Shown here piece after piece: positions 5,100-64,000 of a stretch of 64,000 nt of DNA; within the stretch, counting starts at the first letter, position 1, and each line of letters begins with the position of its first letter. This stretch comes from Pomacea canaliculata (Eukaryota; Mollusca; Gastropoda; Architaenioglossa; Ampullariidae). The stretch is from positions 11,334,758 through 11,398,757 of the forward strand of contig NC_037600.1 of assembly GCF_003073045.1 (NCBI RefSeq), read 5' to 3'. The notes under the pieces are model-generated. The model had not been told where the DNA came from. It ran no database searches and saw nothing but the letters and a program-made list of their open reading frames with translations. The position numbers and the translations under genes are program-made.

Positions 5100-8000
5100 A
5101 TGGCTGAGCCACTTGAACGAGAGTGTGCTGTGTGTACGAATGACTTCACCACACCAAAGATTCTACCCTGTGGTCATCTCCTGTGTCGAGAATGTGTCAT
5201 TTCCTGGATAGATTCGAAATGTGCAGCTGGTTGTCCTCTGTGTAGATGTCCTATAGTACAGCAGTCAGATGGAAGTTCGTCCGACACTGTTGACGCCCTG
5301 CCGACAGACTTTGTGATGGAAGCGCTGGTGGAGAGCGCTCGTGTGCTGAGTAAAGATCACCTTTGTTGTGTGTGTGAGGACGTCAGGGCGGACTTCATCT
5401 GTATGCAGTGTCAGGTCATGTTGTGTACAACGTGTAAAAAAGCTCATAAAAAGCTCCCAGTGAGTCGCAGTCACGATGTGGAGAGTGTCAGCACTGTGAC
5501 ACCTGAACGTCTGGCTGCCAGCCGCCCTGCACTGTGTGCTGACCACGGCGACAAACACGCGGAGTTCTTCTGCAGCGAACACCGCCTCGCTGTCTGCTCA
5601 GCCTGTAAGTCTACCAAACACAAAGTATGTTTAGAAACAAACTATCTTGACGATGAAATAAAGTCAGTTCAAAACTCACTTACCGACATAACAAAAAATC
5701 TGGTAGAAGCGGAGCAGAAGCTAGAGCAGGCTATAGGTCAGCTGACGTCACGTCTACAGGAAGTTGATGTCAGTGAACAAGAAGACATGGCGCAGGTGGA
5801 CAAGGTGTGTAACTGTCTTTACAAGCTGGTGGAAGATGTTTGTAACAAGCTAAAGGACAAGTGTCGCAAGCAACATCTCAAAATCAGGAAGTCGCTATGT
5901 GACGTCAAGACTGGCTTTAGCAACCGTCTAGGGAAGGTGACGTCACACAGACACATTGTGACGCGAGCGGTGGCAGTATCACCACGTCCTGCACTGATAC
6001 ACATGACACAGGCTCTGACAGACAGGGTCAACAGCCTTGACCTCAGCACTGACCTGCTGGGAGACAAATGGGAGAAGCCCTTGTCAAGTGTAGAGTGCTG
6101 TAAAGAAGTTGTGAGACGAATAGAAGACGAGCTTCTCATGTTGAAGCAAGAGAAGACAGAGGCAAAGGTAAAATTTTATCCTTTTTAATCATTTATAAAT
6201 TTTTAGGTTTTGTTTGTAACATTTAAACAATATTTCTGTTTGCTAGTTTTTTTTCCCTTTTCTTGAGAAACCTTTTTTTCCCTCCCTGGTATCAGCAGCT
6301 AGTGACAAAGCGAAAAATGGAGTTATATGTAGTGTGTGTATGTGTGTTTCAAAACACGTTTGCCATATATCTGTGTTATCTGTGCCCGCTGAAAACTTAC
6401 CACGTTTGAGTGTATAAGTTTTAACAAGCAGGTCGTCAGAATCTTTAAACCATCTCAAGGACACACACACACACACAGTCTGTTGTAGTTTCATTAAATT
6501 TATTTCAGAATGCATGTTTTATTCATTCATCGCCTGTAAAGTCATCAAATGAATGTAAAGGTTAATGTGTGATATGATTTAATGTATGGGAAGTGAACTC
6601 TTACAGACACAAGACATTCCTAACGGTTTGATTCTAGATCTCTACAGAAAAAATAATTATAAAATACAACTCTATAATACATATAATAATACCAAAACAT
6701 TTTCAGTTAATACTTACAGTATACTATAGATCTGTTAATAATTTTCATATACAAGAGAATATTATTTACAGTTGGTCTCACAGCCACCAGTCCTTGTGTT
6801 CCACGACAACTGCGGAACCAACATTCGTTTGACGAACGGTAACAGGACCGCGGAGAAGACAGAACTGAATATGATCGGTGACGGGGTGGTTGTGTCACGT
6901 GACCCTATGTTAGCGAACGTCTTGTATGAAGTAAGACATTTGACTAAAACTATGATGATGACAACGATTCTCATTATAATGAAGATTAGTACTGTTATTA
7001 ATTAATCTGGCTATATAATAAAAATTACTTTTATTTACTTTTCTTTCTTTTACAGGATACAGACGCAAACAAAAAATTATTTTGAATTATTTTGTTTCCA
7101 TTTTCTAAAGATCTTTAATATAAGTTGATGACAGCTTACTGAGGACGGATTGAGTAGACTCAATACATTTTTTCTCTTTTCACGCTTGTGGCTTTACTGA
7201 GAGATTGACATCCTTTAGTGCAAATAGTCATCTAAATAAGCTGTCACAGCTTGACATGTCATGACACTGGGATGTTGACGCAGGTCAGAGTGGACGCAGG
7301 AAAAAATAGGTACAAGAAGCTATCACTGGGTGTGACAAGAATTTCTCCTGCTCACCTTACTGTCAAAGAGTGGTCTGAAGACCTGAAAGACTCCGTTATC
7401 ATCATGCCCGGTCATATCTTCCATCAGCGAAAACGTGTGAGTCTTCATGTCTTTGAGTGCAGATGACTTGTGGTTTGGTCTTCGTGTAAGAGATGAATCT
7501 TAGTATCATTCACTTATTCTCACTTTTTTAATACACAAAGCATGGTTGAATGTTTTGATGGATTTTCTTTTCTTTTCCCATGAGCTGGTAAAACTTAGGG
7601 ACAAATGTCGTGTGCGGACGTTTTGCCGACCGGCGTTTCTCCGCATTATGTCAGAGAGAGAGAGAGCTTACTTACTTCTCAAAGAATGAAAGTAACTACT
7701 AGATTACACAATAATTCTTTATTTCAAACAAATTTTACACACAGACTTCACACACAGTTCACTTTGATTGTCACAGATTATGCGCAACAGCTTTGAGAAA
7801 AAACATTGATACAATGGCGAGAGAAATGTGTGAGCTAAGGGGCGTCACACACTTGACTTCGGCTAAAGGTCCGCGTGAAATGCCGAAATGAAGTGCCCCG
7901 CGCCGAAACGTCCGTGTACCACAAATGTAATTCCCAAATTAAAATCAAAATCTTTACCTGCTGTAAATAAAAACCTACAGACATCTAAACATGTAGAATG

Positions 8001-9834
8001 AGGCCAATAAGAGAGACTTAGACGGATGTGCATATGTTGACTTAGGTGAGATAGGATAAGTTATTTAGGCGGTTTGATTTTTTTTTTGGACAGTAACTTT
8101 TATAAAATTGTGGATAAAACAATGGAAGTGTGTTATAACACTTGATTTGTAAAAATGTTTTCTGAAGCCGAGGAAAACCCGTATGGAGAAATTGAACTAA
8201 AGCTTTTACTGACCCAAATAAAGCAGACCCTAGTCGTTAAACAAAATCTTTTTTTTGTACATCAAGTAACGGTAAAATGAAATCACCCTGCTCATACCTA
8301 ACATTTCTTCTCGTACTCAGTTACAAAAAGATAATTGTCGAAAAGTGCGGGTTAGAGTTAAAGACGGAGGTCAAGGTGGGGGGCTCACTCCACGCCCAAT
8401 ATTTTATTAATAAGATTTAAAAAAGTCAGGTATTTATATGTAGGTGCCTACACCGCTCACAAAAGAACTCGGGAGACTTAAAGTCGGGAGTCGAGTCGGG
8501 GTACTGGTGACCTCATCCAACGAACTTCACCTCTACATCAACGGACAGGACCTGGGCGTTGCAGCAAACAATGTTACACAACCCTGGTTTGCTGTCTTTG
8601 ATATTGGCAGTTTAGTTAGTAAGGTAAGAGACACAGGTTATCACAAACACCACAATCAGTCATACAGGCAGACACTGACACTGACAGAAGAAAACAAGGA
8701 AAGATCAGTGGGTGTGTCAGTGTCCAGTGACATTTTTTTTCCTTGATTAGCTTCTTTTGTTGTTGTCATAGTTATTTTCTTTTATATTCTTTTTCTCTTT
8801 TCTAAGCATGATCCTTAATTTATATATGTTTACAACCAAACACTGTATCTTAAAGATTAATTTTACTATGGAACGTCATGCAGGGTCGAAATAAACACAT
8901 GAATTCCCCTATATCTATTTATATATTCTACACTATCGCACAGTTTTCTTAATTAACTAGGACCTCTTGGGTCACAGTCTATAAAGCTTTTTTTTCTTTC
9001 CAAAACCAAGAAATTCCATAGATAATAGAAATGGATCCACTAATTGGCTTTCACAAACTATAAACTACTTTCAAAAAGCAAAGGTAGCATCTCTGGGTCA
9101 CTAGGTTGTTAGACTTATCACAACACAGGAAGAAAATTATCCGTCAGTGGATCCTCTCCGTTAGTCTGGGAGTAGCGACGGTTATCCCCGCCTCCGAGTA
9201 AAATCTCAATATTCTTTGAAACAAATGAGCCTCGGTTGGCAGTACCAGTAGTTCCACCTGTTACAACTATGAGGGAGGTAGAACCTTTGTAATATTTGTA
9301 ATATTTCGGTGAGGTTCTTCTGTCAACTTTGGGACTTGTCCTACATGTTTCTTTATTTTGCCTCATTGGCTGGACAAGGAACTACATTCCTCCTGACTCT
9401 TTCGTTTACAAACTTCACACACTCTTTGTGCCCCACAGGCCTATTAGGGAATGCCTCAAATGAGTTTACAGTGAATACTAGTCTCCATACTAAACAATGG
9501 TTAGTTACCTGCAGTCACAACAACACACTACACTATCGTAACCAGTCGATTTCCTGACACAAACACACTTTATATCACACAGAGGAGTTTGGGATTGCCT
9601 GGTGAGACTATAACGGTCTCTTTAACGGTGATAACATGAAGGTGTCTAGAAAACTGACGTTAATGAGTAATAAAGAGAAGACTCTTGTCTTACCTATTTC
9701 CTGGAGTTTATTTTAGTAAAGTTGACATTTGTACAAGTGTTTTTTGTTTGATAAGTACAGCACTAAGCTTTGTACCTGCTGCTCTGTTGTCTGTTTTACA
9801 GGTGACAGCGCTTCCTACGTCTTTGAGAACATAA
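5100..9834 (+). CDS. Unit 1: TRIM-like RBCC-NHR protein, subfamily I
   Basis: Proposed coding exons are 5100-6167, 6772-6930, 7284-7436, 8444-8623 and 9802-9834, all phase 0 with GT..AG introns, giving 530 residues. RING C3HC4 ligands are C9, C12, C24, H26, C29, C32, C45 and C48. B-box1 spans about 89-125 and B-box2 about 146-174 (CxxH...CxxH...CxxC...H). A helical coiled-coil region covers about 180-265. Exons 2-5 encode the NHR: VFHDNCGTNIRL, a GVVVSRDP-like turn, then YEVRVDA across the exon 2/3 junction, LSLGVTRISP, VGSRVGVLV and LYINGQDLGV. This is probably a cytosolic E3 ubiquitin ligase that recognises targets through the NHR; substrate unknown. The start was chosen because an acceptor (TATCTTCAG) lies 10 bases upstream and sibling starts align. 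A MITE sits in intron 3. The 54 nt mini-exon of units 5 and 6 was not found. Confidence 0.85.
7609..7920. mobile_element. 312 bp MITE (hAT-like) in unit 1 intron 3
   Basis: The element is flanked by a direct repeat ACAAATGT at 7601-7608 and 7921-7928 (8 bp target duplication). Its ends are imperfect inverted repeats sharing CGGACGTTT. Sibling introns at about 20322 and 39498 read GTGACAA(A/T)TACTA without the insert and so act as empty sites. It is internally non-coding. The 8 bp duplication suggests hAT-type mobilisation; the ends differ from the other hAT elements here. Confidence 0.72.
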
Positions 9835-15691: not shown

Positions 15692-15695
15692 AAAT

Positions 15696-15836: not shown

Positions 15837-15901
15837 TCAAGGAGATGAACAGATGGGGTAAGAGAAAAAAAAAATCAATGCTAGTCTACTCACCAATAAA
15901 C

Positions 15902-16914: not shown

Positions 16915-17977
16915 ATGGAGGTAGCTCAACCACACGAGCGAGAGTGTGCCGTGTGCACTAATGACTTCACCACACCAAAGATTCTACCCTGTGGTCATCT
17001 CCTGTGTCGACAATGTGTCATTACCTGGATGGACTCTAAATCTGACGCTGGTTGTCCTCTGTGTACCTGTCATATAGTAGAGCATCAAGGTAATTCAGGT
17101 CAAAGTTCAGCTGATGTTGTCGACGCCCTGCCTACAGACTCTGTGATGGAAGCGATAGTAGAAAGTTCTCGCGTGTTGATGAACGATGACATGTGCACTG
17201 TATGTGATGACGTCAGAGCTGAATACATCTGTATGCAGTGTCTGGAAAAGATGTGTCCATCGTGTATGAAGATACACAAGAAGATGGTAGTGAGCCGCAG
17301 TCACGATGTGGAGAGTGTCAGCACTGTGACACCTGAACGTCTGGCTGCCAGCCGCCCTGCACTGTGTGCTGACCACGGCGACAAACACGCGGAGGCATTT
17401 TGCGCTGATCATCACCTTAGTGTCTGTGCATCGTGTTCCTCCATCAAACACAGAACATGTTTAGTTGTGAGAGATATCAACGACGAAATGAAAGCGGCTG
17501 AAAATGCACTTTGTTGTTTGACTGACCAGCTGGTTCAGGCCGAGTACAGTCTGAAGCAAGGTACAGAGCAGCTCACCATACGTCTTCAGAAGGTGGAGGA
17601 CATGGAACAAGAAGACATGACACAGGTAGACAACACATGCGACAAACTTCAGAGCATGGTGGAAAATTGTCGAAAAGAACTAAAGAAACAGATACATGAT
17701 TCAAGTTTACAAGTCAAGAATTCGTTATTGGAAGTTAAGCAAGAACTCGACAAACGTCTGGTGAAAGTGACGTCACACAGGAATATAGTGACGCGAGCTA
17801 GAGCAGTGGCGCCACGTGCGGGGCTAATACACGTGACCCAGGCTCTGACAGACAGGGTCAACAGCCTTGACCTCAGCGCCGATGTAGATGAAGGGTCTTG
17901 GAGGACTCCACCTGGCATAAGTGTGAAATGCTACAATAGATTGGAAAGAGCCATACGGAGTAAACTACATCAATTCC

Positions 17978-18011
<34 letters not shown>

Positions 18012-19693
18012 GACCAAGCCTAAAGTATACAGTTCTTTTATTTTGTAGTAATACCTATATTTTTAAAATATATTTTAAAGATGTTATGCTATTCTTTTGA
18101 TTTTAATTACTAGTTTTTCGCTGACTTGTCAGTCTTTTATTTTTAAGAGGCTTAGTATTATTTATACACTTATATGCAAATTAAACTCCATTTGGTGATT
18201 TTTTAGGCGTGTACCGTTAAGCTACATCTATATTTTAACTGTTTGTTGTTTATCCTATGACAGGCTGCTTACTTTCTAATGCGGAGCCAAAAAAGATGAT
18301 CAAATTATGTTGATGTTTTATGTTAAAACATTCGGTCCACTAATGGACTACAAATTAGTTTAGTGATTGTTTCAAGTCCTTCTTTGAGGTAGGCGGAAAT
18401 AACCTACTGACCAGTGACATAACTCCTAAGGCGATGAAAGTTAAAAATTACAAATAGGGACTGAGTTAACATAAGCTCTGGACTTTAAAAAATGAAAGAT
18501 TGTTTTTTTTTTTTTAAGGGAGAAAACTTTTTTTCGTTCAGTTGCAGCTAAAACAGAAGGTTAACATATCATTGACAGCAAACACCCGTGTCGACCTAAG
18601 TGAGACGGTAATATCAATATTGATGTTTGTGTGTGTATTAATATTATTCTGACAAAACTCTTGAACAAACGATTTTTTATTGTGTATTTTCGGGTTTGTT
18701 TCAATTAATCTGCACTAAGATGTAAACACACATAAACCACTATCCTTCAACTTTCTAAAGACAATTTTCACAGCAATAATTACTTTTCCTTTAAAGAGGG
18801 TGCTGGTATAGAGATGGCTGCATTCTAAGGTCGTGCTTTAACACTAAAACGCCTGTAATATTCTACTGAAGATCTTTATTGTTCCTACTGAAAGCAAAAC
18901 GGTACAATCTATTTGCTTGGTTCAAAACTAGTTTCTGGCAAAAAAAAAAGAAAAAAAAAAAACACTTTCTGGGCTCAAACACAATAATGTGCGCAAGTCT
19001 GCGTTTGTGTATGTATTAGAAAAATAGACAGCTGATGTGTCAAACATGTCAATGAATCTCAGGACTGACATTGTAAGTAGCAAGGTGCTTATCTCAATAC
19101 CTTACATGTAAAACGAAAGAAAACAACACACACACACAGACTCTCTCACTTCAAGCTTGTTAAAATTATTTCAGAATGCATGTTTTAATAAAATGCCATA
19201 ATTTGCCAACCGTAAAATGTATTTATCAAAATCACATCGTCATTAACTTCTTCAAACAAATGTAAAGTTTTGTGTGAGGTATGTTGTGATGTAATGTATG
19301 GGAAGAGGATTCGTACCGACACAAAACTGTATAATTATTGTATGATTGCAGATCTTAACAAGAAAAATAACCGTATTATAAATATTTGAGGTATTAAATA
19401 TTAAAGTATTATTAGTGTTTTATATTTCGATTTTCTTAACCATGTATTACTAAACATTATAATTGTCGAGTAAATATCTATTAATAAATTTTATTGACAC
19501 GAAAATGGATATTATTTACAGTTGGATGCACAGCCACCAGTCCTTGTGTTCCACGACAACTGTGGAAGCAACATTCGTCTGACGAACGGTAACAGGACCG
19601 CGGAGAAGATAAATCAATGTGTCTCTGGTAACGGGGTGGTCGTGTCACGTGACACTATGGTGCCGAACGTCTTGTATGAAGTAAGATATTAGG

Positions 19694-19724
<31 letters not shown>

Positions 19725-21551
19725 AATGAGTAATGTTACTAATAAAAACAGAAAAGAAATACTCTTATGCACATTTTTATAGTGCACAGACGCAAAGAAA
19801 ATAATCTGTATTTTTTTGTTTTAGTTTTTTTAATAGCTGACGCTACTTTAAAGAAAGTTTACTTAGGACAGGAGTCTCTATTCATAGTGTCCCTGTTTGG
19901 TCACATTTTTACTTTACTGAGACATATTTCAGTCCACGTATATAATTATCCTAACAAGCTGTCACAGTTTGGCATGTCATGACACTTTCATATTGACACA
20001 GGTCAGAGTGGACGCAGCATCAGTTAATCACAAAAAGTTATCACTGGGAGTGACAAGAACCTCTCCTGCATATCTCCTTGGGACAGAGTTGTCTGAAGCC
20101 CTTAATGATTCTGTTATCGTCTCCAGCAGTGGATTGTGCTACCAGGGAGGACGTGTACGTTTAATTGTTTCAGGTCCCTACAAATGGCTTTTTGTGATTT
20201 GGGCTATGCATTCAAGCTGAAGCTAATTATCATTCTCTTCTTTTTAAATTTGTATACAACAAATCATTCTTAAAGGTTTAGTTCTATATTCTTTCCATTT
20301 CTAGTGGCAGGTAAGATTCGGTGACAATTACTATTTCCTAAAATTGAATTTAAAAGATTATCCCCCTGCAAATAAAATCCTACGAACACCCCATTATACA
20401 GAACAAGAAAAACCTCAGTAACGGATGTTTAAATGTTGACGTAGACATGGTGACAGCCATGAGGTGGGATGGTATATGATATCAAGGCGGCTATGAGTTT
20501 AATATTATGCACAGTAAATTTTATAAAAGTGTACCTCCAAAATAGAATATTTGCCTAGATATCTGGGAATGTTTTCTCAAGCTAAAGAGTAAACCGTGAG
20601 GAGAAAGAAATTAACTAAGGCTATAACTCCGCAGTTCTCAAACGGTGGGGTGCCCCCCCCCCACCCACCCAGGGGCGATGTTCTTACAAGGGGGTGGGGG
20701 GCGAAGGTGGTCATTTTTTAAAAGTTTCTTATACCGGTATTAATGAAATTAGCTTACATTGCTGGCTAAAGGGGGCGTGCGGACGTACCTTTGTTCGTCA
20801 ACAAGTTAAAGGTTGAGAACCGCTGCTTTAACTGATCTCAATAAATCAGTATTATTCGTAAATAAAGAGCTCTTTCCTTTCTACATCTAGACACGATACA
20901 ATGAAATCAATCCTGTCCCTACTTTATATTTTTCTAAAAAAATCAAGCATCTTTTTTATCGTACACAGTAACATAAATAACTGTGGAACAGCTCACGCTA
21001 GAATGAAAGATGGGGACTAAGCTAGGTGCTCACTTCTTGCTCAATATTTTATTTAAAGGCAAAAGTATCAGGTATTTGTCTTCAGATGTTTACCACTCGT
21101 GAAGATCTCAAGAGACTTGAAGTTGGGAGTCGAGTTGGGGTCCTGGTGGACTCATCAAACGACGTTCACCTCTACGTCAACGGACAGGACCAGGGCGTTA
21201 TAGCGAAATATGTCACACCGCCCTGCTTTGCTGTATTTAATATCTGGAGTTCAGTAACAAAGGTGAGCGACAGAAGTACACTTTACATTACACATAGAAG
21301 TTTAGGACTGCTTGGGGAGACTATTCCGGTCTCTTGAACTAACATAACGTGAAAAATGTTCGGAAAATTTCAGTTAATAAATTCTATTTTATTACCTACT
21401 TTCTAGAGCTGAGCTACAGAAGCTTACTTCGTAAAGTGCACACTTATGCAAATTTTCTTGTTGTATATAGAAATCATTAGGTTTTGTACATTGAGCTTTG
21501 TTGTCTGTTGAACAGGTCACAGCCCTTCCTACATCTAGAATTATAAAATAA
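16915..21551 (+). CDS. Unit 2: TRIM-like RBCC-NHR protein with polyQ, subfamily II
   Basis: Proposed coding exons are 16915-18024, 19522-19680, 20002-20154, 21086-21262 and 21516-21551, all phase 0, giving 544 residues. The RING starts RECAVCTNDF, with the same C3HC4 spacing as unit 1. Two B-boxes (CTVCDDVRAEYICMQC and CADHGDKHAEAFC) and a coiled coil follow, then 12 glutamines encoded almost wholly by CAA just before the exon end. The NHR exons read VFHDNCGSNIRL, YEVRVDA, LSLGVTRTSP, VGSRVGVLVD and LYVNGQDQGV, ending VTALPTSRIIK. The acceptor at 16900 lies 14 bases before ATG. If intron 1 is retained the frame stops after VYSSFIL at 18048. The role is inferred as an E3 ligase with an NHR target-binding domain. 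A 197 bp hAT derivative lies in intron 3. Confidence 0.85.
19695..19725 (+). repeat. (GAT)n microsatellite
   Basis: Trinucleotide repeat just inside the intron after the first NHR exon. The same site carries GAT/GAC repeats in units 3, 4, 5 and 6. Confidence 0.8.
20629..20825 (-). mobile_element. 197 bp hAT deletion derivative (MITE)
   Basis: The ends are CCGCAGTTCTCAA and TTGAGAACCGCTG, near-perfect inverted repeats. The flanking 8 bp are CTATAACT (20621-20628) and CTTTAACT (20826-20833). The left part matches the reverse complement of the right end of the hAT at 42782-45460 (through GGTGGTCATTTTTT and TTTCTTATAC), and the right part matches that element's left end. It is therefore an internally deleted relative in the opposite orientation. 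Unit 3 shows the empty site, GGCTTTAACTGATCTC, near 30439. Confidence 0.85.
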
Positions 21552-26377: not shown

Positions 26378-27448
26378 ATGGAGGTAGTAGTTCGATCACA
26401 CGAACGAGAGTGTGCCGTGTGCACGAATGACTTCACCACACCAAAGATTCTACCCTGTGGTCATCTCTTGTGTCGAGAATGTGTCATTAGCTGGATGAAA
26501 TCTAAACATCATGCGGGATGTCCTCTGTGTACATGTCCTATAGCAGAGCATCAAGGTTATTCATCTCAAAGTGCAGCGGATGTTGTTGACGCCCTGCCTA
26601 CAGACTCTGTGATGGAAGCCATAGTACAAAGTGCTGGCGTGCTGGGCAAGGATAACATGTGCACCGTATGTGATGACGTCAGAGCTGAGTACATCTGTAT
26701 GCAGTGTGTGGAAAAAATGTGTTCATCGTGTATGAAGATGCACAAGAAGATGTCCATGAGCCGCAGTCACGATGTGGAGAGTGTCAGCACTGTGACACCT
26801 GAACGTCTGGCTGCCAGCCGCCCTGCACTGTGTGCTGACCACGGCGACAAACACGCGGAGGCATTTTGCGCTGATCATCACCTTAGTATCTGTTCATCGT
26901 GTACCTCAATCAAACACAGAACATGTTTAGTTGTGAGAGATATCAACGACGAAATGAAAGATTCTGAAAAAACACTTTGTGGTTTGACTGACCAACTGGT
27001 TCAGGCCGAGTACAGTCTGAAGCAAGGTACAGAGCATCTCGCCATACGTCTTCAGAAGGTGGAGGACATGGAACAAGAAGACATGACACAGGTAGACAAG
27101 ACATGCGACAAACTTCAGAGGATGGTGGAAAATTGTCGAAAAGGACTAAAAAAACAAATACATGATTCACGTTTACAAGTCACGAATTCGTTAATAAAAG
27201 CTAAACGAGAACTAGACAAACGTCTGGGGAAAGTGACGTCACACAGGAATATAGTGACGCGAGCTAGAGCAGTGGCGCCACGTGCGGGGCTAATACACGT
27301 GACCCAGGCTCTGACAGACAGGGTCAACAGCCTTGACCTCAATGCCGATCTAGATGAATTGTCTTGGATGATTTCACCTGAGAGAAGTGTGGAATGCTAC
27401 AACCAATTGGAAAAAGCCATAGAGAATGAGCTCCATCAATTTCAACAA

Positions 27449-27493
<45 letters not shown>

Positions 27494-36030: not shown

Positions 36031-37096
36031 ATGGAGGTAGCAGTTCAATCACACGAACGAGAGTGTGCTGTGTGCACGAATGACTTCACCACACCAAAGA
36101 TTCTACCCTGTGGTCATCTCCTGTGTCGACAATGTGTCATTTCCTGGATGGACTCAAAATCAGACGCTGGCTGTCCTCTGTGTACCTGTCCTATAGTAGA
36201 GCATCAAGGTAATTCATCTCAAAGTACAGCTGATGTTATTGACGCCCTGCCTACAGACTCTGTGATGGAAGCGATAGTAGAAAGTTCTCGTGTGCTGGGA
36301 AAGGATGACATGTGCACTGTATGTGATGACGTCACAGCTGAGTACATCTGTATGCAGTGTCTGGAAAAGATGTGTCCATCGTGTACTAAGATACACAAGA
36401 AGATGGTAGTGAGTCGCAGTCACGATGTGGAGAGTGTCAGCACTGTGACACCTGAACGTCTGGCTGCCAGCCGCCCTGCACTGTGTGCTGACCACGGCGA
36501 CAAACACGCGGAGGCATTTTGCGCTGATCATCACCTTAGTATCTGTGCATCGTGTTCCTCCATCAAACACAGAACGTGTTTAGCTGTGAAAGATATCAAC
36601 GATGAAATGAAAGATTCTGAAAATGCACTTTGTGGTTTGACTGACCAACTGGTTCAGGCCGAGTACAGTCTGAAGCAAGGTACAGAGCAGCTGGCACTAC
36701 GTCTTCAGAAGGTGGAGGACAGCGAACAAGAAGACTTGACACAGGTAGACAAGACATGCGACAAACTTCAGAGCATGGTGGAAAATTGTCGAAAAGGACT
36801 GAAAAAAATGATACAGGATTCACGTTTACCAGTCAAGAATTCGTTATTGGAAGTTAAACAAGAACTCGACAAACGTCTGGGGAAAGTGACGTCACACAGG
36901 AATATAGTGACGCGAGCTAGAGCAGTGGCGCCACGTGCGGGGCTAATACACGTCACCCAGGCTCTGACAGACAGGGTCAACAGCCTTGACCTTAACGCCG
37001 ATCTAGATGAACTGTCTTTGATGACTCCACCTAGGATAAGTGTGGAATGCTACAATGAATTGGAAAAAGCCATAGAGAATAAACTACATCAATTTC

Positions 37097-37139
<43 letters not shown>

Positions 37140-49300: not shown

Positions 49301-50601
49301 AGTTACACAGATGCAAACACAATTATTAAGAACTATTTTTGTGTTTTTTTTTTAAATCGTTGACACAAGTTTGAGTAGTCTCAATACAGAGCGTCTGTCT
49401 CTCGTCACGCTTGTTGCTTTACTGAGAAAGAGATAGGGAGACATCCTTTAGGTCAAATAGTCACCCTAGTCAGCTGTCACAACTTCACAAGTCATGACAT
49501 TGTTATGGTGTCGTAGGTCAGGGTGGACGCGATATCAGTTGAGTACAAAGAGATTTTACTGGGAGTGACAAGAATTTCTCCTGCACGTCTCATTGTGACA
49601 GAGTTTTCTAACGACCTTGAAGACTCTGTTATTGTCGGACCCAAACTGGTCGACTACGAGGGAGAATGTGTGAGTTTTACTGGCTTAAGTCCTACAAGTG
49701 GCTTGTTGTCTGATCTCTATAAATTTTAAAAAGCTGATTATCATTCACTTGTATTTACTTTTTTATTTAACAAATCATTCTTAAAGGTTTCTGGTTATTC
49801 GCTCCTTTTCTGATGAGCAGGTAAAAGTAAGCAACAAATATTATTTAGCAAAATTCAATTTTAAAATATTTTTCCTTTTTCTACGGTAAAGCAGAGGAAT
49901 ACTCCCGTTTAAAAATATTGGCTTTAATTGATCTAAAGAAAATCAGTTTTTTCTTTGTACATGAAATTACCCTCCCCCTAATATTTTTCGGAAGTCATTA
50001 AGCACTTTTTTAAATCGTACACAGTAATAAAAATGTTTGTGGAAGAGTGACAGAATAATAGACCGTCAGGCTAGAAAGCTCACTTCCCGCAAAATATTTT
50101 ATAAAAAGTAAGGAGTATTAGGTATTTGTCTGTAGGTGTTGTCTCGACTCGGAACAAATCTCAGGGAGCTTCAAGTCGGGAGTCGAGTTGGGGTCCTGGT
50201 GGACTCATCAAACTTCCTTCACCTCTACGTCGACGGACGAGACCAGGGCGTTGTCCCAACACGTGTCATACCGCCATGTTTTGCTGTTTTCGATATGTGG
50301 AGTTCAGTCGCAAAGGTGAGAGATACAGGTACACGTTAGGTACACAGATAAGTCTGAGATCGCCTTGGCAGACCATAGCGGTCTCTTAGACTAAGATAAC
50401 GGGAGAATGTCCTAAAATCTGCAGCTAATGAATAATAATCAAAGGAATTAATTACCTTTTGTTGACGTGCAGGGAGGCTTTGTTTGTAAACTAGAGATTT
50501 TTACCAAGTTTGCTATGTTTTATAAGGCATTCAGTTTTGTACCTGCTGCCTTGTTGTCTGTTGAACAGGTTACAGCCCTTCCCACATCTAGGAGGACATA
50601 A
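46354..50601 (+). pseudogene. Unit 5: frameshifted RBCC-NHR gene, subfamily I
   Basis: Recognisable coding parts are 46354-47422, a 54 nt mini-exon 48079-48132, and NHR exons 49052-49210, 49517-49669, 50136-50315 and 50569-50601. One extra G at 46557/46558 (CCTGCCGGACAG against CCTGCCGACAG in units 1 and 6) shifts the frame between the RING and B-box1, so the initiated frame ends at 46608. The rest stays open: B-boxes, coiled coil, and NHR landmarks VFHENCGTNIRL, LLGVTRISP, VGSRVGVLVD and LYVDGRDQGV, ending VTALPTSRRT. The intact NHR suggests a very recent loss, a sequencing error, or use of an internal start that would give a RING-less protein. The promoter is also split by the hAT element. 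The equivalent of the unit 6 75 nt mini-exon has lost its acceptor (about 47700). Confidence 0.75.
48520..48575. repeat. AT-rich tract of repeated ATAATAT
   Basis: Short AT-only repeated motifs in intron 2 of unit 5, capable of local hairpins. An (AC)n tract follows near 48645-48663, as it does at the equivalent intron place in units 1 and 2. Confidence 0.6.
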
Positions 50602-52995: not shown

Positions 52996-55387
52996 GTTGT
53001 TTGTTTCGAAGGAGACGATGAGTAAACTTTACATGGTTGCACTGCTTAACATCAGCTTATTCACTAACGTTAAACACTAAAATACAGTCATCTTGGTGAG
53101 CTGCAGTGTGACTTTAGTAGGTCTGCAGTTGTATAATGACATTCATTGCGGCAGGTAAGTTCTTAAAGATGCTTAAAGAATACAACAAGGTATTCGAGGA
53201 AAAGCGCTGAATAATGATGTCTTTTTTATGACATAAACGTTTCTACTCATTTCATCAGTTCATGGTCTTGCACAATAAGCTCGCTTTATCCGTTAGTAAA
53301 ATGACGTTTCCAATGTTAAAACTATAATAAAAGGGATTTATATTTTTGAACTAGCAGCTATCGATGGTTATGTTTCTATTTTTATTGAAAGTAAAGACAC
53401 ATACTAAGTCACTAATTAGAAAGAATAAAAGCAGTCATGTGATCAGAATCATTTCTAATATTTTTTATTTAAGGCAAAAGAAAGTTCTTATTCATTTGCT
53501 GCTTTAGGAAGTTATTTTTTTTCTAATTCAGGACACAGGGGAAATGACGCATGAAAAAAAATTTAACTTGCCAAAAAAAGAAAAGATGCTTCTAAAACAT
53601 TCATTAATCTTATTGTTTTGTTTTGTTTTGTTTTGTTTTTTTTGTCTCTATTCCTTTACAATCTTACAAATCTTCATCTCCCAAACCGGTAAATAATTTT
53701 TTAAAGCTAAGATTAGATTAGAAAGAAATTACATCATGTTTCTACGATTTGTATCATCAGTAACTTAGAATCCAAGATGGCTGAGCAAAACGAAAGAGAG
53801 TGTGCTGTGTGCACGAATGACTTCACCACACCAAAGATTCTACCCTGTGGTCATCTCCTGTGTCGAGAATGTGTTATTTCCTGGATGGATTCCAAAGCTG
53901 ATGCCGGGTGTCCGCTGTGTAGATGTCCTATAGTAGAGCAGTCAGATGGAAGTTCGTCCGACACTGTTGACGCCCTGCCGACAGACTTTGTGATGGAAGC
54001 GCTGGTGGAGAGCGCTCGTGTGCTGAGTAAAGATCACCTTTGTTGTGTGTGTGAGGACGTCAGGGCGGACTTCATCTGTATGCAGTGTCAGGACATGTTG
54101 TGTTCAGCCTGTACAAAGGCTCATAGAAAACTTTCAATGAGCCGCAGTCACGATGTGGAGAGTGTCAGCACTGTGACACCTGAACGTCTGGCTGCCAGCC
54201 GCCCTGCACTGTGTGCTGACCACGGCGACAAACACGCGGAGTTATTTTGCCGCTCCCACGGGCTCCCTGTCTGCTTAGCTTGTAAGTCTAACATACACAA
54301 AGTATGTCCGGAAGTAAACTTTCTTGACGATGAAATACAGTCAGCTCAAAATTTACTAAAAGACTTGACAAAGAGTCTTGTAGAAGCGGAGCAGAAGCTA
54401 GAGCAGGCTATAGGTCAAGTGACGTCACGTCTACAGGAAGTTGATGTCAGTGAACAAGAAGACATGGCGCAGGTGGACAAGACATGTGACCGTCTTCAGA
54501 AACTGGTGGAAGATTTCCGTAAGAATTTGAAGGAAAAGACTCGCACGTCACATCTCAAAATCAGGAATTCATTACGTGACGTCAAGACTGACCTTAGCAA
54601 CCGTCTAGGGAAGGTGACGTCACACAAACACATTGTGACTCGAGCGGTGGCAGTGTCACCACGTCCTGCACTGATACACATGACACAGGCTCTGACAGAC
54701 AGGGTCAACAGCCTTGACCTCAACGCTAACTTGGAAGGAGAGGTGTGGGAAAAGCCCTTGTCAAGTGCAGAATATTGTCAAGAAGTTGCTGGGCGGATAG
54801 AAAAAGACTTAATGATGTTGGCACCGCAAACAACAAAGACACAGGTATTCTTTCCTTATTATACCATTATTGAGTTTTTAATTGTTACACTTGATGAGAA
54901 ATTTATATGTAATGAAACTATACAAAAACACCAAGTTGTGGAAAATAATTTTATTTATTTTCAATTTGTTTAAAATATCTTTCCGAAATATGGTGGATTG
55001 TAGTGGTTGGAGGGAGGTAAAAGGTGTGGAAGTGGGTGTGCACGCTTATAATATTTTCTGCGCTGTCTTTGCAGTCTGAATAAAAATGTATATGACTTTG
55101 TGAGAATATAGGTGAGTGAGGAAGGATAACTGTATATATTTGGATTTATAGCCATAGTTTAGAAGGTTGTAGAAAACTTCCATAGCCAATGTGCTTAAAA
55201 CAATAAGTAATATCAATATCGCTGTGTGTATGTGTTTGTATATTACTGGAAACTTCAGTCTCTACGGTTCGTTCCTGTAACAAAGCAGTAATAAATTCTT
55301 GCACCTTTATTCATATTTTAGTAGGTTATAACTCGCAACATTGCTAAGCTTCCCTCTCATAAGATTGTTATCCAATTGTTATTTCAG

Positions 55388-55962: not shown

Positions 55963-57506
55963 GTCAGTAATCTTTTTATATATCTTCAGCATTATATGTT
56001 AGAAAGAAAATGTTTACAACTGTTACATATATGTGTGTGTCTACACAGTTTTAAACATTTTATATATTTTATATATATTTTATATATTTTTTAAACATTT
56101 ATAATCATGCAGATACACAACACATAAAATATAATATTTACAATAAAAAACGAAAACATGCCTAGAAAGTGACAGTCATTTTAGAATACATCCATCTGCC
56201 AAACAAGCTAACAATGTAGAATCTTGCACAACAAAGTATGTGCTCTTTTCACATCTCACACAGACATTATAACAGACGCCTTGGGTCGTATGTGCTTTCG
56301 ACTAACGACAACACAATATCAATATATGTAATATCAATGCATAGATATTTTAAGTAATCATACAATTATATATATATAAAGTTAGTATTTATGTCTAGTT
56401 AACATGTTTTTAGATGATAGACAGTGTTTAACTAACTTTTCTTCCTTCATTTCTAAACATGCATTAATTTTTTTAAATTATTTATCTGTTTAAATATTCG
56501 AATAAAGGTTTCTAGATGGGGGATGATGCTTAATGATTCTAGGAAAAAAGTAAGTAATATTTTAATTGTAATGTATATTCTAATAACATATATGCTTGTT
56601 CAGTACTTTCTGTGTCTATATACTGGATAAATTCTGTTTTTTTTTTTATTTTCTAACTTTTGACGTACTTCCAGATTTGGGATTTCTCGGTCCTGTACAG
56701 TTACAGTTTTTCAATTTCTTTTACTGCAAGAAAACAAAATCTATAATTGTTAAAATTTACACCACGTAATATTTTGAAAAGGGCATTAAAACAGAGTATC
56801 ACAGATAGTTGTCTTTATTGTAGGTTGATACATATAAAATGATAAAAACACCGGTCCAAATTTCATTGGCCATTACGTGTGGAACGGCTAGCAATCGCGT
56901 GGACTCTCTTAGAGTAAACATAAACATAAAAAACGCACACAAAGAAACAAAGAACGACTTGTTAACTGGTTAAAATTATTTTAGAATGCATGCTGATAAG
57001 TGACTGTTGTCTTGCAGTAATAAAATCTGTAGTAAAGTCATCTGCCAGCCGTAAAATATTTAATTTGTAGTAAAATCTTCAAACGACCCCATGTAAGGTT
57101 TTTGTGTGTTTTATGATGTGATACAATAATATGTAATATGTTGTGATACAGTATATAGTGAGTTGAGATATAGTAAATAGTGACGACTAATACAGTATAA
57201 CACTTGAGTCATTAAATATTACTTCAATACTAGTGATTAATAAATAAAATTACTTCTAATATTATACATATTATGTAGAAGTCAATTAAATATCTTTTTT
57301 AAAAATTTCCCCCACAATAGCGTGGACGTCGCTTTCAGTTTGGTGCAAAGCGACCATTCCTTGTCTTCCACGAAAACTGCTGTTCAAACATTCGTCTGAC
57401 AAACTGTAACACGGGGGCAGAGAAGATAAATCCTACTAATACGTTCAACGACGGTATGGTTGTGTCACGTGAAGCTATGGAGACAAACTACTTCCCAGAT
57501 AGCATG

Positions 57507-57850
57507 CAAACGTTTTAAAAACGTTTTAAAAACGTTTTAAAATGTTTACATAAAACATTTTAAAAAGGTTTGCAGAAAACGTTTTAAAAATGTTTATCAT
57601 GCCCATCAAAGTAATGTTTTAAAAACGTTTTCTGCAAACATTTGTAAAACATTTTAAAAATATTTTTAAAACGTTTTATAAACATTTTTCTGTAAAACAT
57701 TTTAAAAACATTTAATAAATATTCGTATGTAAATGTTTTAAAAACGTTTTTAAAATGTTTTTTAAACCTAATTTAAATGTTTCGAAGGACACGTTTTTTA
57801 AACGTTTTAAAAATGTTTTTGAAACCTAATGTAAATGTTTCACAGTTCAC
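57507..57850. repeat. Left subterminal repeats of the 5.6 kb element
   Basis: A dense array of ACGTTTTAAAAACG and ATGTTTTAAAAAC-type palindromic motifs that are degenerate copies of each other. It mirrors 62866-63060 near the other end and is possibly a set of transposase-binding sites. Confidence 0.85.
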
Positions 57851-58537
57851 ACATACTTTTCACAGTTTCACTTCAAACATGGCATAAATGACGTACAGAG
57901 AAGATTTTCATTTGTTGTAATTAAAACATATTTCGTGTCGGGAATAAACCCAGGAGACATTTACATTATACAATAGCAAGTACAAAATGGTGACCATTTG
58001 TGATAAAAATGAATAAATGATACTCAAAAAAGAGAAAAAAGAATATAAATTAATTAAACACCGACAAATCAATGAATAGGATTTTTTCTTAAATTAATAC
58101 TTTTAAATATTTCAATTTCAAATACTTAAAGGTGAGGTGGTGCGGCACTGTGCTCTGTGCAGAGTGCCAAGGAATAATTAAACTAAAACTAAACTTATAG
58201 ACCTTTAGATTTACAAAAAACAGTGAATTGTAAATACAATTGGATGATGTACAAAATACACCAAAAAGTACAGTTACCCTGTTGTAGATAACAACATGCA
58301 CATTATCATCTCTACCCTTCTACAAGGGACATATCATTCCAATTAATTAATAATATGAGAATTTCCATACCGTAAAATAAGGCTGAACAATTAAAAGTTC
58401 ATGTATGTCTGGTAAAGTGGCTTTACGAAAAATGCACTTAGAACACTATCAGATCCACATGCCTTCATTTTAACATACTAAAACCTTCTTATATGTAATT
58501 ATTAGATATCTCAAATATGAGACATTGTTGCTAAATA

Positions 58538-59016
58538 TCAGCAAGCGTCCCAATTAGGGTCAAGAGTGGCTTGGTGATAAGCCTGATGTTCCTTATGCAG
58601 CAAAGTTAGGCATACATGCCAGTGTAGAGGAGTAAAAGGAGGCAAAAGCACAGAAGTGTTATATGTGGGAGACAGCTCTTGAGCGTGGAGGAGAGCCAGG
58701 GACAAAGGACTGTCAGGACTGCCTGCTGTTGCCGTTGGAAGCGAATGGCTATGTGACCAGTACTGGCATTCGGCGGCTGTAGGTGGCATTGCAGTCATCG
58801 TAGACATTACGTGTATATCTCTAGACTTCTCTGTCGCTGGGAGAGGAGTCGTCGCTCTCTGATACGGATGGCAGCTCGGGCGGGAAGGACGACGGACAGG
58901 TAGAACAGCACTGTCTGCTGAAGCATTGGTCTCCACTCTGTGATGGCTCCTGCACTAACTTTATCGGAAGCCTCCATACACCCACGGTTCTTCCGTACAG
59001 CTTCTGCAGATAGCAA
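58538..59016 (-). other. GC-richer segment with overlapping minus-strand reading frames
   Basis: Two overlapping minus-strand frames (132 and 69 codons) lie in a stretch of less AT-rich sequence inside the element. Neither product is recognised. The segment may be a 3' exon of the element's gene or non-coding. Confidence 0.3.
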
Positions 59017-59869
59017 AAATGGGATTTGTAGATTAAAGAAGCGCTACAGGTTTATAGATTAAAGATGGACTAAAGAAGTCTCACACTATACATATTGTTT
59101 CAGTTTTATGGTTATGCTTGTTCCCCATGTCTTTCCGTTTTTACGCTAGTTTCACCCATAGAAGCACAATTAATACTGACAAGAGCTACAGATAATTTTC
59201 AACTGTAGAGCTAGCAATGAAAAATGTCAATTCATGTTATACAAAAATAAGCACTTAGATCTGCACTTCTCTTTTTTGTCAAAGTATGTGTAGACAATAT
59301 ATCATATATCTATACCTTTAATAATAATATACACTAACATTTATACATCATCACTTACTGTAGATCATGTAGATCATTTCAGTCCCTTGAAAGCACACAT
59401 CTCTTCCTTTTGTCCTTTCCAGTTATAGTTCCGAGCAACCTTGTCGGTCAGGAGTCGCCGCATGATTCTTTTCGCACAATCCTTTGCATTCGTTCTACCC
59501 ACACAGGAGAGGCTTTTGACTTGCAAATCATTAGAAGACAAGAAACATATCTGTCAAAAGTAGGCCACACATCATAAACAAGAAAGGGTGTAGTGAAAAT
59601 ATACATGGCTTTAATTATTTACAATTCAAGGGCCATACAAAAATTATAAACTGAAAACTTTCACAAAAGCTGACATTTAATGTTTCCTTCCCAATAACCA
59701 TAAAGTTTATGAGGCTGAAACCCTTTGAAACTGGATTTAAAATTTGACTTATTGTGTTCCACACTATATATGTATGATAGATTGACAAGAACTGATCATT
59801 CTCAAATGAATTCCCTATAAAAACATAAGTTTTTCAAAAATGTCAAGCTATGCTTTAAAATTCCCCTAA

Positions 59870-60176
59870 ATTATTACAGATTATCATTTCAATCATGGCT
59901 TTAACAATGACATCTGCTTTACGTACGAGTAATTCATGAACGGAATCATCATCAAGGCGTCCATCCAGTTCCAACAGCTCTTGCTGTGTTCTAATCAGAA
60001 GGATCAAATCTTCTGGCAACATTCAGGCATCCTTTGCTGGAGCAGGCTGGTCTTTGCTTATCAGTGAATGAATCACCATATCTTTTACTTCCTGTAGCAT
60101 CAATTTCAATTCTCTGTCTTGTTTCAGAATGAGCCAGGCAAATGCTGCAACAGTATGAACATAGCACTGTGAGCAA
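59870..60176 (-). pseudogene. DUF4806-like gene segment in the 5.6 kb element
   Basis: Minus-strand reading gives AAFAWLILKQDRELKLML...KDMVIHSLISKDQ, then an in-frame TGA at 60025-60023, then MLPEDLILLIRTQQELLELD and RLDDDSVHELLVRKADVIVKAM. The second part resembles, from memory, the start of the DUF4806 domain found in transposon-associated animal proteins (a P-x-x-x-E-x-E-L-L-E-L-type pattern). Upstream segments in the same orientation may be its earlier exons: 61493-61376 with AYWPPSELTKHLKEGALPD, and 60631-60508 with LGLESPDEEEEDDFRW. The stop codon suggests decay. Confidence 0.45.
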
Positions 60177-61375
60177 AAGTGGACAATTAACTTTTATAGG
60201 TGAATGAAGCCAATCAACGGTGATTTGGGAGGCAGTAAGAAACTTGTATAACCAACACTATGTTCAACTTGAGATTGTGAAGGGAATTCACAACAAAATT
60301 AAATAGGCAAAACAAAAAGCAAGAAAAGTAACCCATAATATAAAATTGTCTGAATTACCTTCATTAGACACTCTCTGGGTACCGCCTTTTACTGCTGCAG
60401 TTGTGAGGTCTGTCCCCTCTTGTACTCCTTGCTGAGAGTCACTACGTTGGTCACTGGGGTGCTCACGTCGTGGTGCCAATATTCTGGTGGTTAGTGCATT
60501 TACCTGTGGGCATAAACGCTTGTTTTCCACTTGTGGTTGCAATGAGTCTGGCAATGGTCCTGCTGGCACTGCTGGATGCACTGATTTCCATCTAAAGTCG
60601 TCTTCTTCCTCCTCGTCTGGGCTCTCTAGCCCTAACCTAATTAACAAGCATACCTATTAATAAGTGTGCAGTGAAATGACAATTATGAAAATTTAAGAAT
60701 TTCTGGAGTAAAAGATTTAAGAAATAAAAATAATAAATAATTCCTAGGCTATACCTATCATAATATCAATATTACCCTCATGAAAAATTGAAATGAACTG
60801 CAATACTGAAATCTGTACTGATCTTGTAAGTTGTTCTCCAAACCTAGGGATTCCCTAATCCCTGTCATTCTATAACTCAAACAAGACACAATGTGACTAC
60901 TTGTTTCTCTTCCTCTTCCGATCTTTTCAACCTTTAGTGCTGTCAGCATCTGTTGTATCCAAGTTTGATGTATACTGGCTGTTATCCACTTTTCGTCTGG
61001 CAACCAAATACTCATCTGAAAGGGTTATTAATTTGTGAAGTTATAATAAACATCGAGAATAATGGCATGCAATGCTTTACCACACAATATGCATTTCACA
61101 TGACAAAATCAGTTAACTGTCTGTTCGCTGAGATGTTAATGGTCATGCGGCTGTATGTTCCAGTCTGTAACCACAATAAACCCTAAGCAAGGTCTGCGTG
61201 GACTAAAGACACTAACACTACCTTAAAACCTTTTACAAAATAAATATGAACAATACTTGTAAACTTTATCAAGAGACTGACCACAAAAATATTAACCAGG
61301 CTGACGAAGTCATCAAACATCTAATCTCTATAATATACATATATATGACAATGAGTAAAAAAGTATAAAAGTACC

Positions 61376-61493
61376 CTTTGAACCCAAAATGCAAACAGCT
61401 TGAAGAGTCCAGGTATGTCTATCTGGCAGAGCTCCCTCCTTAAGGTGTTTTGTCAGCTCACTTGGTGGCCAGTATGCTAACCGTTTCGCGTGC
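61376..61493 (-). other. Probable exon of the element's accessory gene
   Basis: Preceded on the minus strand by an acceptor (TTATTTTTCAG), open, and reading HAKRLAYWPPSELTKHLKEG then ALPDRHTWTLQAVCIL, ending near a GTACTT donor. The WPP...P...TW pattern is one I associate with the N-terminal part of DUF4806-containing proteins. Assignment is by pattern only. Confidence 0.4.
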
Positions 61494-61899
61494 TGAAAAA
61501 TAAACAATCCTCTATGAACTCTTACCAGGGAGGCTAACTGTGTGTCTTTATGGGAGTGTTGGACGTTTGACTTCATCTGTCATATTTCCGTCAGAGATTA
61601 TGACTGCATAAATTTTTATACACTGTTATACTCAAGGAACTATGGTAAATACAGGGAGGATAGCATGAATCTTGTTCAGCTGAGATATGATTGTATTGAC
61701 TGCAGTTTGCTTCTGTGGCATGCAATGTTATAATGTCACGTTATTTAATGTTATTAAAAACTCTATCATCCTTAAGTAAATTTTAAGAACATGTAACACA
61801 AATTTACACCATAATGAGAAATGATTACACAATACCAGGGGTACCATTTCAGCCATAGATAACGGTTTAGCAATGAATTCAAGCAAGCAGTTATTACAG

Positions 61900-62351
61900 G
61901 ATGCTTTTGTCCAACAAGGCAAGAAGTACTGAAAGTGAACTGTTGGAAATGTTAAATGTTGCGACCCAATATGCCAACTGTGTGGCCAAATCTGTATCTG
62001 TTTCACTGTCGCTGTCTGAAGATATCGCTGAATCAAACTGATCATCAATATAATCTTCAAATTCACTAAAATTAGATTTCACAACATCATCATCATTATT
62101 TTCATCCAAATTGTATTTAGTCGGTAAATATTGCTGGCGTGATGTTATCGCTGAGAGTTCTGGTGTCTGCTGGTTCGAACTGTTATTAATTTGACTCTGT
62201 AGATCTAAAACTGTGAGCACCTTCTCTACGACACTGGATCGTGAATGTTTGTATCAGTGTGTATTGAATACATCTTTCTTCTTTCAGTTCTGCCAACTCT
62301 GCTTCTACAAGTTTTATTAACTTTTCTCCGCTTCGTCCAGTAGGACGACAT
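61900..62351 (-). pseudogene. N-terminal fragment of a putative transposase
   Basis: Minus-strand ATG at 62351 opens MSSYWTKRRKVNKTCRSR. After a frame change near 62232 the reading continues through acidic DSAISSDSDSETDTD to LAYWVATFNISNSSLSVLLALL. A basic start, an acidic serine-rich middle and a W-x-x-x-x-N-I-x-x-x-x-L-x-x-LL motif resemble the N-termini of large uncharacterised transposon proteins in cnidarians and other animals (recollection, not a search). The catalytic part is not seen in the element, so this copy is probably non-autonomous. Confidence 0.4.
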
Positions 62352-62865
62352 GATGTGAACTATCAGCTGCCTTAACGTATTAGATTATGTACGAGCGCTC
62401 AATTCAGAAAGTAAACTTTGACACATCACACCCAATAAGCATACATTAAATGTGTGTTGTACTAGAACACGGTATATAGCGTTTTATAATTAAGAACCTG
62501 AAGTACGTGTATGGTAAACAAAGAGAAAAGATTACAACCTTGGTTTTCAAACATACAGTACATCAGCAGAGAAAATGTCGCGCCGCGTGGAATCATGGGA
62601 GTACGTGCATCCACAAGAAGAATAGCAAATATTTAGTTACGTAGCATTGATGTTTTAAAAACTGCAATGATTTTAAACTATCAAACCTAGTCATAAGACA
62701 AATATAACAAAGTCTTTAAAAATGCTTTTTGGTGAGGATTTTCAGTATCTACACCGTGGACTGGCTCTAAAATTCCATAGGAGAAGTGAATGCCGGCAAA
62801 TCAAATAGTGACGTCTTATAAAAAATTACGTCATGACGCGCAGCCATAAAGGTTAACATTGTAAA

Positions 62866-63060
62866 CGTTTATAAAACATTTATTTAACATTTTTGTTTTA
62901 AATGTTTTATTTTCAAACATTTTAAAAATGTTTTTAAAATGTTTTACTTAAAAATGTTTTTTTGGTAAATGTTTTTAAAATGTTTTTAAAACGTTTTATC
63001 TAAAACGTAAACCTTATTACAACCATGTAAACGTTTTTAAAACGTTTTTAAAATGTTTTC
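62866..63060. repeat. Right subterminal repeats of the 5.6 kb element
   Basis: Repeated AAACGTTTATAAAACATT and AAAATGTTTTTAAAACG motifs, the counterpart in inverted orientation of 57507-57850. Confidence 0.8.
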
Positions 63061-64000
63061 ATGCTATCTGGGTTGTATGAAGTAAGATATGAGGCTAGAA
63101 TGATGATGATTCATGATGATTGATTGATGATTGATGATGATTGCTGACGATTGATGATGATCATTAAACTTGCTGCAGAGCAAAGTTGCTGTTATGAACT
63201 GTTCTTTTGTTTGTAAGCGTATAGACGAAAGTATAAAAAAAATCCGTATAATTTCTATTTACTTGTTTGACACAAATTTAAGTAAACCTTATTTAAAAGG
63301 GGTTGATTATAATCAGTCTGTAGTATTTCTCTGGTGACGCTTTCTGTGAAAACTCTACTAAAAGATTGGCAACAAAACAGCTGTCACATATTCGCCTGTC
63401 ATGACACTGTAATGTTCACACAGGTCATAGTGGACGCAGTATCATCTAAAGACAACAGAGTATTCGTAGGTGTGACAAGTATCCCTCCTGCATGGCTTAA
63501 TATGACGAAGTATTCCGGACACCTGTACGATGTCATGATCTACCCCAGAGTGGTCTACCAAGAGGGAGAATATGTGAGTTTCCATGGCTTTAAATGCGTG
63601 AAACTTCATTTGTTATTTGGACTAGGTGTAAAAGTTGAGGTTAATTACATGATACATTTTTTTTAAATTCTTGAAATCAGGTGTTCCCCTCGCACTTCCA
63701 GGATGCACAACTAAAAAGTATTAACCACTGCCTCTACTTAATATTTTTCAAAAGGAATAAAAGATTAATGTTTTATTTCAGAGTTAAAAGAAAATTATGG
63801 AAAAGGTTATACAAGTAGGTTATTTGAAACTTAGATTGGGGTACTCGTAACATCAAAGAAACTCACTGCAAGCATTTATTAAAAGGTAAAGGTATCAGGT
63901 ATTTGTTTTCAGGTGTCTAACACGTTAGGACAATGTCTCAAGAAACTTCAAGTCGGGAGTCGAGTTGGGGTCATGGTGGACTCATCAAACGGCCTTCACC

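Follow-up and report, generated by a model that had tools for sequence, protein, structure and literature searches.

We describe a tandem array of genes in a 64-kb stretch of the genome of the gastropod Pomacea canaliculata (contig NC_037600.1, positions 11,334,758 to 11,398,757; hereafter the window), which combine an N-terminal RING-B-box-B-box-coiled-coil (RBCC) module with a C-terminal Neuralized (NHR) domain. The NHR domain of these genes is under diversifying selection, while the RBCC module is mostly conserved. Gene structure, domain content, NHR diversification and the discordant divergence of the two modules can be read from the DNA itself, and together they point to putative ubiquitin ligases that would work as an innate-immune effector set, a reading to which we assign a probability of roughly 0.6. 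As sequence, the array is confirmed as real and well supported; chance is ruled out by the profile scores together with the same order of modules in six units.

Six RBCC exons are arranged in tandem in the open-frame list of the window, all on the plus strand, with Met starts at 5100, 16915, 26378, 36031, 46354 and 53777. We numbered the corresponding units u1 to u6 from left to right. The RBCC frame is a single open one in u1-u4 and u6 and consists of two overlapping frames in u5. An all-against-all comparison of the open frames placed three conserved short exons behind each RBCC exon, and a fifth coding exon, which carries the stop, was read in the tails of u1-u5. The whole RBCC is thereby encoded in one exon, and the C-terminal domain is split over four short phase-0 exons that make up a nearly complete Neuralized domain in u1-u5; u6 runs past the end of the window and retains a partial NHR of three exons, the last of them cut. 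All coding introns of u1-u5 are in phase 0, if exon 1 of u5 is taken in the frame of its 3' part, and GT-AG borders were found at 22 of the 23 junctions examined, the exception being the end of exon 2 in u6, at an inserted element. The spliced proteins of u1, u2, u3 and u4 comprise 530, 544, 556 and 543 residues, respectively. Units u2-u4 repeat with a period of approximately 9.5-9.7 kb and can be aligned over most of their length with 72-85% identity. A preliminary description of this DNA had proposed six RBCC exons with NHR exons downstream; this order holds in all six units, only four of which are intact in sequence, and the NHR exons and their phase were confirmed, except that the last coding exon (VTALPTS... 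stop) had been missed. The features of the array are:

5100..6167, plus strand: u1 exon 1, with RING, B-box 1, B-box 2 and predicted coiled coil, RBCC class A
6772..6930, plus strand: u1 NHR exon 2
7284..7436, plus strand: u1 NHR exon 3, the fast-evolving exon
8444..8623, plus strand: u1 NHR exon 4
9802..9834, plus strand: u1 exon 5, NHR end and stop
16915..18024, plus strand: u2 exon 1, RBCC class B, poly-glutamine tail
17296..17391, plus strand: 96-nt block identical across the six units (u2 copy)
19522..19680, plus strand: u2 NHR exon 2
20002..20154, plus strand: u2 NHR exon 3
21086..21262, plus strand: u2 NHR exon 4
21516..21551, plus strand: u2 exon 5 and stop
26378..27517, plus strand: u3 exon 1, RBCC class B, poly-glutamine tail
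29237..29395, plus strand: u3 NHR exon 2
29801..29959, plus strand: u3 NHR exon 3
30703..30882, plus strand: u3 NHR exon 4
31146..31178, plus strand: u3 exon 5 and stop
36031..37152, plus strand: u4 exon 1, RBCC class B, poly-glutamine tail
38695..38841, plus strand: u4 NHR exon 2
39187..39339, plus strand: u4 NHR exon 3
39828..40004, plus strand: u4 NHR exon 4
40846..40878, plus strand: u4 exon 5 and stop
46354..47422, plus strand: u5 exon 1, RBCC class A, frame broken behind the RING
49052..49210, plus strand: u5 NHR exon 2
49517..49669, plus strand: u5 NHR exon 3
50136..50315, plus strand: u5 NHR exon 4
50569..50601, plus strand: u5 exon 5 and stop
53777..54844, plus strand: u6 exon 1, RBCC class A, open frame
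57339..57493, plus strand: u6 NHR exon 2, interrupted near its 3' end by an inserted element
57494..63072, no strand assigned: transposon-like insert in u6 exon 2, with terminal inverted repeats and sub-terminal repeat arrays
63424..63573, plus strand: u6 NHR exon 3
63913..64000, plus strand: u6 NHR exon 4, cut at the window end

The Pfam search of the spliced models bore out the proposed domains. All five complete C-termini (u1-u5) match the Neuralized family PF07177 with E-values of 7e-20 to 3e-24, far above the Pfam cut-off of 23.3 bits, and the match spans model positions 1-146 or 1-147 of 149, across the four exons. The exon-2 piece of u6 alone scored 21.7 bits, below this threshold, and exon 3 and the partial exon 4 of u6, each taken alone, gave no Pfam match. 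The identity of the C-terminal domain is further supported by the solved NHR structure 2e63 ('KIAA1787 protein'), which was matched with E 7.4e-17 by the NHR profile and with 5.5e-15 by a single sequence; the remaining matches of the profile had E 0.36 or worse. We take the 2e63 protein to be NEURL4. At the N-terminus, a C3HC4-type RING was found as PF00097 above the cut-off in u1-u4, u6 and the first-frame fragment of u5, and two stretches each matched the B-box family PF00643 in u1-u4, u6 and the second-frame fragment of u5. The RBCC profile also matches the structure 6h3a ('Transcription intermediary factor 1-beta', presumably TRIM28) over columns 10-254 of 370 (E 7e-13), a region that takes in the RING, the two B-boxes and a portion of the helix. 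A C-terminal B30.2/SPRY domain (PF00622) was considered and rejected: u1 only gave a sub-threshold match (E 0.021), PF07177 being far stronger, and no match was listed for u2-u5 at E up to 0.1. Only u2-u4 have long poly-glutamine runs, of differing lengths, between the predicted coiled coil and the NHR (17977-18011, 27443-27501 and 37096-37139).

Units u1-u4 are open throughout and thus intact in sequence, so that an array of pseudogenes, which we considered, is ruled out for them by spliced frames open over 530-556 codons and an RBCC omega of about 0.5. In the RBCC exon of u5, a length change of one base past the RING has broken the frame, and exon 2 of the u6 NHR is split by an element of 5579 bases (57494-63072), whose ends carry terminal inverted repeats (CCCAGATAGCATG) and sub-terminal arrays of an 11-base repeat. 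Four minus-strand open reading frames (ORFs) examined in this element match no Pfam family. Beside the six units there are at least four decayed RBCC fragments (4748-4900, 11634-11833, 14361-14522 and 14725-14799), and we read the array, from its sequence, as a tandem family evolving by birth and decay.

Codon models were fitted with our own code to the five complete NHR copies (u1-u5, 177 codon columns). The average omega of the NHR under model M0 is 1.04, and M2a was favoured over M1a with twice the log-likelihood difference (2dlnL) at 34.95, placing about 24% of the sites in a class with omega 3.7 and 34% in one with omega 0. None of 100 data sets simulated under M1a reached this value (largest 7.99). 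The statistic varied between 33.9 and 36.7 over five topologies, rose to 40.1 when only the 147 columns (of 177) not close to gaps were used, and was 23.95 without u5 and 22.83 with u2-u4 only. Thirteen NHR sites have a posterior above 0.9, three of them in exon 2, six in exon 3 and four in exon 4. Counting substitutions among u2-u4 gave a nonsynonymous divergence (dN) of 0.324 and a synonymous divergence (dS) of 0.144 for exon 3, equivalent to an omega of 2.25 (bootstrap 1.27-5.14), and omega values of 0.99 and 0.64 for exons 2 and 4. Intron divergence (K) among the u2-u4 pairs was 0.24-0.30 for intron 1, 0.15-0.20 for intron 2, 0.24-0.40 for intron 3 and 0.21-0.34 for intron 4, and the pooled dN of exon 3 is higher than K of introns 1 and 2 for each of the three pairs. 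For the RBCC, M0 omega is 0.50, RING plus B-boxes give an M2a-M1a statistic of 5.15, and no site passes a posterior of 0.9 in the whole-exon fit. Positive selection is hence concentrated in the C-terminal domain, as in B30.2-class TRIMs, with signals also in the RBCC and above all in its coiled coil.

Several observations weigh against this picture. Counted over the whole NHR of u2-u4, omega is 1.07 (bootstrap 0.76-1.58), the omega of exon 3 over all five copies is 1.34 and not clearly above 1 (0.85-2.15), and in the pair u2/u4 the pooled exon-3 dN does not exceed K of introns 3 and 4 (0.40 and 0.34). The RBCC itself yields an M2a-M1a statistic of 9.25 over all columns (p 0.0098), 14.25 on columns 1-340, 10.34 with u1-u4 only and 6.39 with u2-u4 only, and its coiled-coil columns reach 30.2 in a fit that gives 3% of the sites an omega of 56, which is implausible. 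Codon tests of this kind can be inflated by gene conversion, and the models used ignore recombination. As to the coiled coil, heptad periodicity has p 0.038-0.26 in five copies, and the AlphaFold model of the RBCC, with long helices at 172-220 and 224-293, has low confidence (mean predicted local distance difference test score, pLDDT, 45.6); from such predictions a coiled coil behind the B-boxes is plausible rather than proven.

The two modules of these genes have diverged to different depths. The RBCC exons fall into two deep classes, A (u1, u5, u6) and B (u2, u3, u4), with a dS, computed downstream of the u5 frame break, of 0.83-1.05 between and 0.12-0.24 within classes. No such split exists in the NHR (partial in u6), where the two groups are separated from each other by a dS of 0.28-0.48 and the members of group A among themselves by 0.40-0.52. 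This contrast between RBCC and NHR is significant in all nine between-class pairs (p 5e-7 to 1e-3) and in two of the three pairs within A (p 0.0014 and 0.0003; u1-u6, p 0.076), and in none of the three pairs within B (p 0.28-0.53). The NHR tree is not resolved, and an approximately unbiased (AU) test leaves the RBCC topology unrejected for the NHR (p 0.33). It is therefore from the depth of divergence, and not from a resolved NHR topology, that the discordance is read. The RBCC exon of u1 is 88-89% identical to those of u5 and u6, while over the 300 bases on each side identity is roughly what shuffled sequence gives. In the pair u5 and u6, the 5' flanks remain similar (0.73) and the 3' flanks do not. 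We infer from these sequence comparisons a homogenisation of the RBCC exons of class A and an exchange of RBCC exons among units.

A stretch of 96 bases over the B-box linker is identical in all six units and spans both RBCC classes, between which the other synonymous sites differ by about half. In the five-copy alignment it lies within 33 consecutive identical codons, a length that 20000 permutations of the full set of 380 codon columns never reached (maximum 14). If only the 180 columns with an invariant amino acid are taken (Met and Trp excluded), 33 is again the longest run, with p 0.0001 and values of up to 38 in 20000 permutations. The decayed fragment at 11723-11818 retains the block with 11 mismatches, of which 10 fall within the first 22 bases, and protein-level selection on this copy is unlikely. 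RNA folding of the 96-base stretch gave no support for a structure (z -1.48 and 0.10), and an exact 31-base pattern taken from it occurred 0 times in a viral and 0 times in a genome contig collection. Repeated gene conversion is the simplest guess for this block.

As innate-immune effectors, the encoded proteins could work as follows: The RING would recruit a ubiquitin-loaded E2 enzyme, while B-boxes and coiled coil would form an oligomeric scaffold. The C-terminal Neuralized beta-sandwich would hold the place that B30.2/SPRY takes in TRIM5alpha and the finTRIMs, that of the reader, whose variable surface may bind a pathogen protein or a host protein targeted by pathogens. Ubiquitination could then mark the bound target or start signalling. 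The array would evolve by duplication and decay while its readers diversify, and the effector module would stay mostly constant, homogenised between copies and exchanged between units. Ubiquitin ligase (E3) activity, oligomerisation and ligand binding are expected from the families to which these domains belong, and the pathogen origin of the NHR ligand is the most tentative element of this model. The preliminary description had seen in the cluster an analogue of antiviral TRIM clusters, which is in line with diversifying selection on the NHR, tandem birth and decay and discordant module histories; the antiviral role itself would be an analogy. A more far-reaching version appears possible to us, at somewhat less than even odds: this lineage might own a B30.2-TRIM-like restriction system with an NHR reader, in which recombination or conversion around the first intron shuffles two RBCC classes onto a common, diversifying NHR pool and so builds a combinatorial germline repertoire.

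A tandem array with a diversifying NHR does not in itself tell the arena in which the proteins work, and diversifying selection fits reproductive or self-recognition proteins, too. RBCC-NHR ligases could thus act in sperm-egg interaction, self-recognition or the control of selfish elements, their NHR diversifying against host or transposon partners, and there are mobile-element-like stretches within the array. We regard this as unlikely, since both parent families have antiviral members (TRIM; NEURL3) and the sequence evidence holds no pointer to gametes. More doubtful still is a role as developmental or Notch ligases, in which the NHR would bind a Delta-like or other conserved host substrate and the duplicates drift under relaxed constraint. 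Homology of the NHR to the Neuralized family and a mean NHR omega near 1, which can be read as relaxation, would suit this idea. Relaxation, though, gives neither a site class with omega above 1 (0 of 100 null simulations reached the observed statistic) nor an NHR in which about 34% of the sites have omega 0, and six copies plus fragments in 59 kb are unlike a single developmental gene.

That RBCC and NHR belong to one gene, as had been proposed, is backed by profile, phase and splice sites. In all six units, the reading frame upstream of the NHR exon 2 acceptor holds no Met back to its nearest stop, so that the NHR would need an upstream exon. An unspliced RBCC exon reaches a stop 6 to 42 codons past its donor. 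The exon-1 donors (GTAAAA, GTATAC, GTATCC and GTATTC) look weaker than the other donors in comparison with the consensus, and intron 1 contains hexamers of polyadenylation type in every unit; on these two grounds an RBCC-only form is possible. The same features, the near read-through stop and the different divergence depths of the modules would also fit separate genes, with the RBCC ending just past the donor and the NHR in other transcripts, which we consider the least probable alternative, and a very improbable one, given that all six units keep one order, that every coding intron of u1-u5 is in phase 0, that the NHR has no start codon of its own in any unit, that intron 1 holds only two ATG frames of about 61 codons (u4 and u6; none longer) and that a polyadenylation-type hexamer lies 218-222 nt past the stop in u2-u4.

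Some further features lie within or around the units. Broken minus-strand ORFs at 43500-44970, one of four tested giving a weak sub-threshold zinc-finger match (zf-C2H2_12), resemble a hAT/ZBED-type transposase. An ORF at 40126-40557, which overlaps intron 4 of u4 and matches PF09004 just above the cut-off, resembles the terminal part of a non-LTR retrotransposon reverse transcriptase. A partial second copy of the end of NHR exon 4 was found at about 9505-9636 in intron 4 of u1. The region downstream of u1 (10719-11400) is repeated at the left window edge (338-1007), and this repeat suggests a further unit upstream of the window. An Rfam scan of the window gave 0 matches at gathering score, and ARAGORN in its bacterial setting found 0 tRNAs.

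Relatives of the two modules were also sought in contig collections. With the NHR alignment, 36 stretches of the viral and 68 of the genome contig collection matched the pattern, 0 of them relatives. The RBCC alignment matched 39 stretches of viral contigs, including one weak relative (31% identity, residues 199-316), which from its position we judge to be a helix similarity. No RBCC-NHR protein is described in the consulted passages of open-access papers naming both B-box and neuralized, a scope that does not cover subscription papers or protein databases; the earlier remark that no such protein had been characterised agrees with this literature, within the limits of open-access papers. Predicted RBCC-NHR proteins may stand in databases under automatic names. 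A term search of a TRIM classification paper (PMC3503706) found 'neural' 0 times.

Most discussion of TRIM-type immune ligases concerns those with B30.2 readers. If an array under diversifying selection has a different reader of related fold, then the combination of a conserved ligase and a fast-evolving concanavalin-like reader would have arisen on more than one occasion. Such an array would also supply candidate restriction factors in non-model animals, which searches for TRIM-SPRY genes miss. The discordant histories of effector and reader exons would furthermore make modular exchange testable.

By analogy, the array resembles the finTRIMs and other immune TRIM clusters that have a B30.2 reader, but its own reader is a different one. 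In the passages of the finTRIM study available to us, M2a places 15.6% of the B30.2 sites at omega above 1, and a strong signal in B30.2 goes along with few sites in the N-terminal half (PMC2657112). Like the finTRIM and TRIM5alpha clusters, the Pomacea array consists of duplicated copies with RING, B-box and predicted coiled coil followed by a reader, in which selection is strongest. Unlike them, its reader is Neuralized (PF07177) and not B30.2, and it is further set apart by an RBCC in one exon and a reader in four phase-0 exons. Other TRIM classes, with NHL, MATH or filamin C-termini, share the N-terminal RBCC plan and differ in the C-terminal domain.

With the Neuralized family (NEURL1, NEURL3, NEURL4) the array proteins share the NHR domain, 2e63 being the one solved relative found. 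Excerpts of the literature on this family describe a RING at the C-terminal end, after the NHRs, in Neuralized 1 and 2 (PMC6826584), six NHRs in NEURL4 (PMC4565672) and, for NEURL3, an E3 that promotes the antiviral response in mice (PMC12166272). Unlike Neuralized 1 and 2, the array proteins have an N-terminal RING, two B-boxes and one C-terminal NHR, and with the stop in exon 5 they follow neither the RING-after-NHR nor the several-NHR plan. SPRY-like domains including Neuralized have been linked to immunity, as far as the consulted section goes (PMC8195603). In molluscs, the legend of a figure on Aplysia TIR/COR proteins lists an NHR domain (PMC9334734), which the array thus shares with the domain set of a mollusc immune inventory; the domain list of this legend, unlike the array, is without RING or B-box (PMC9334734).

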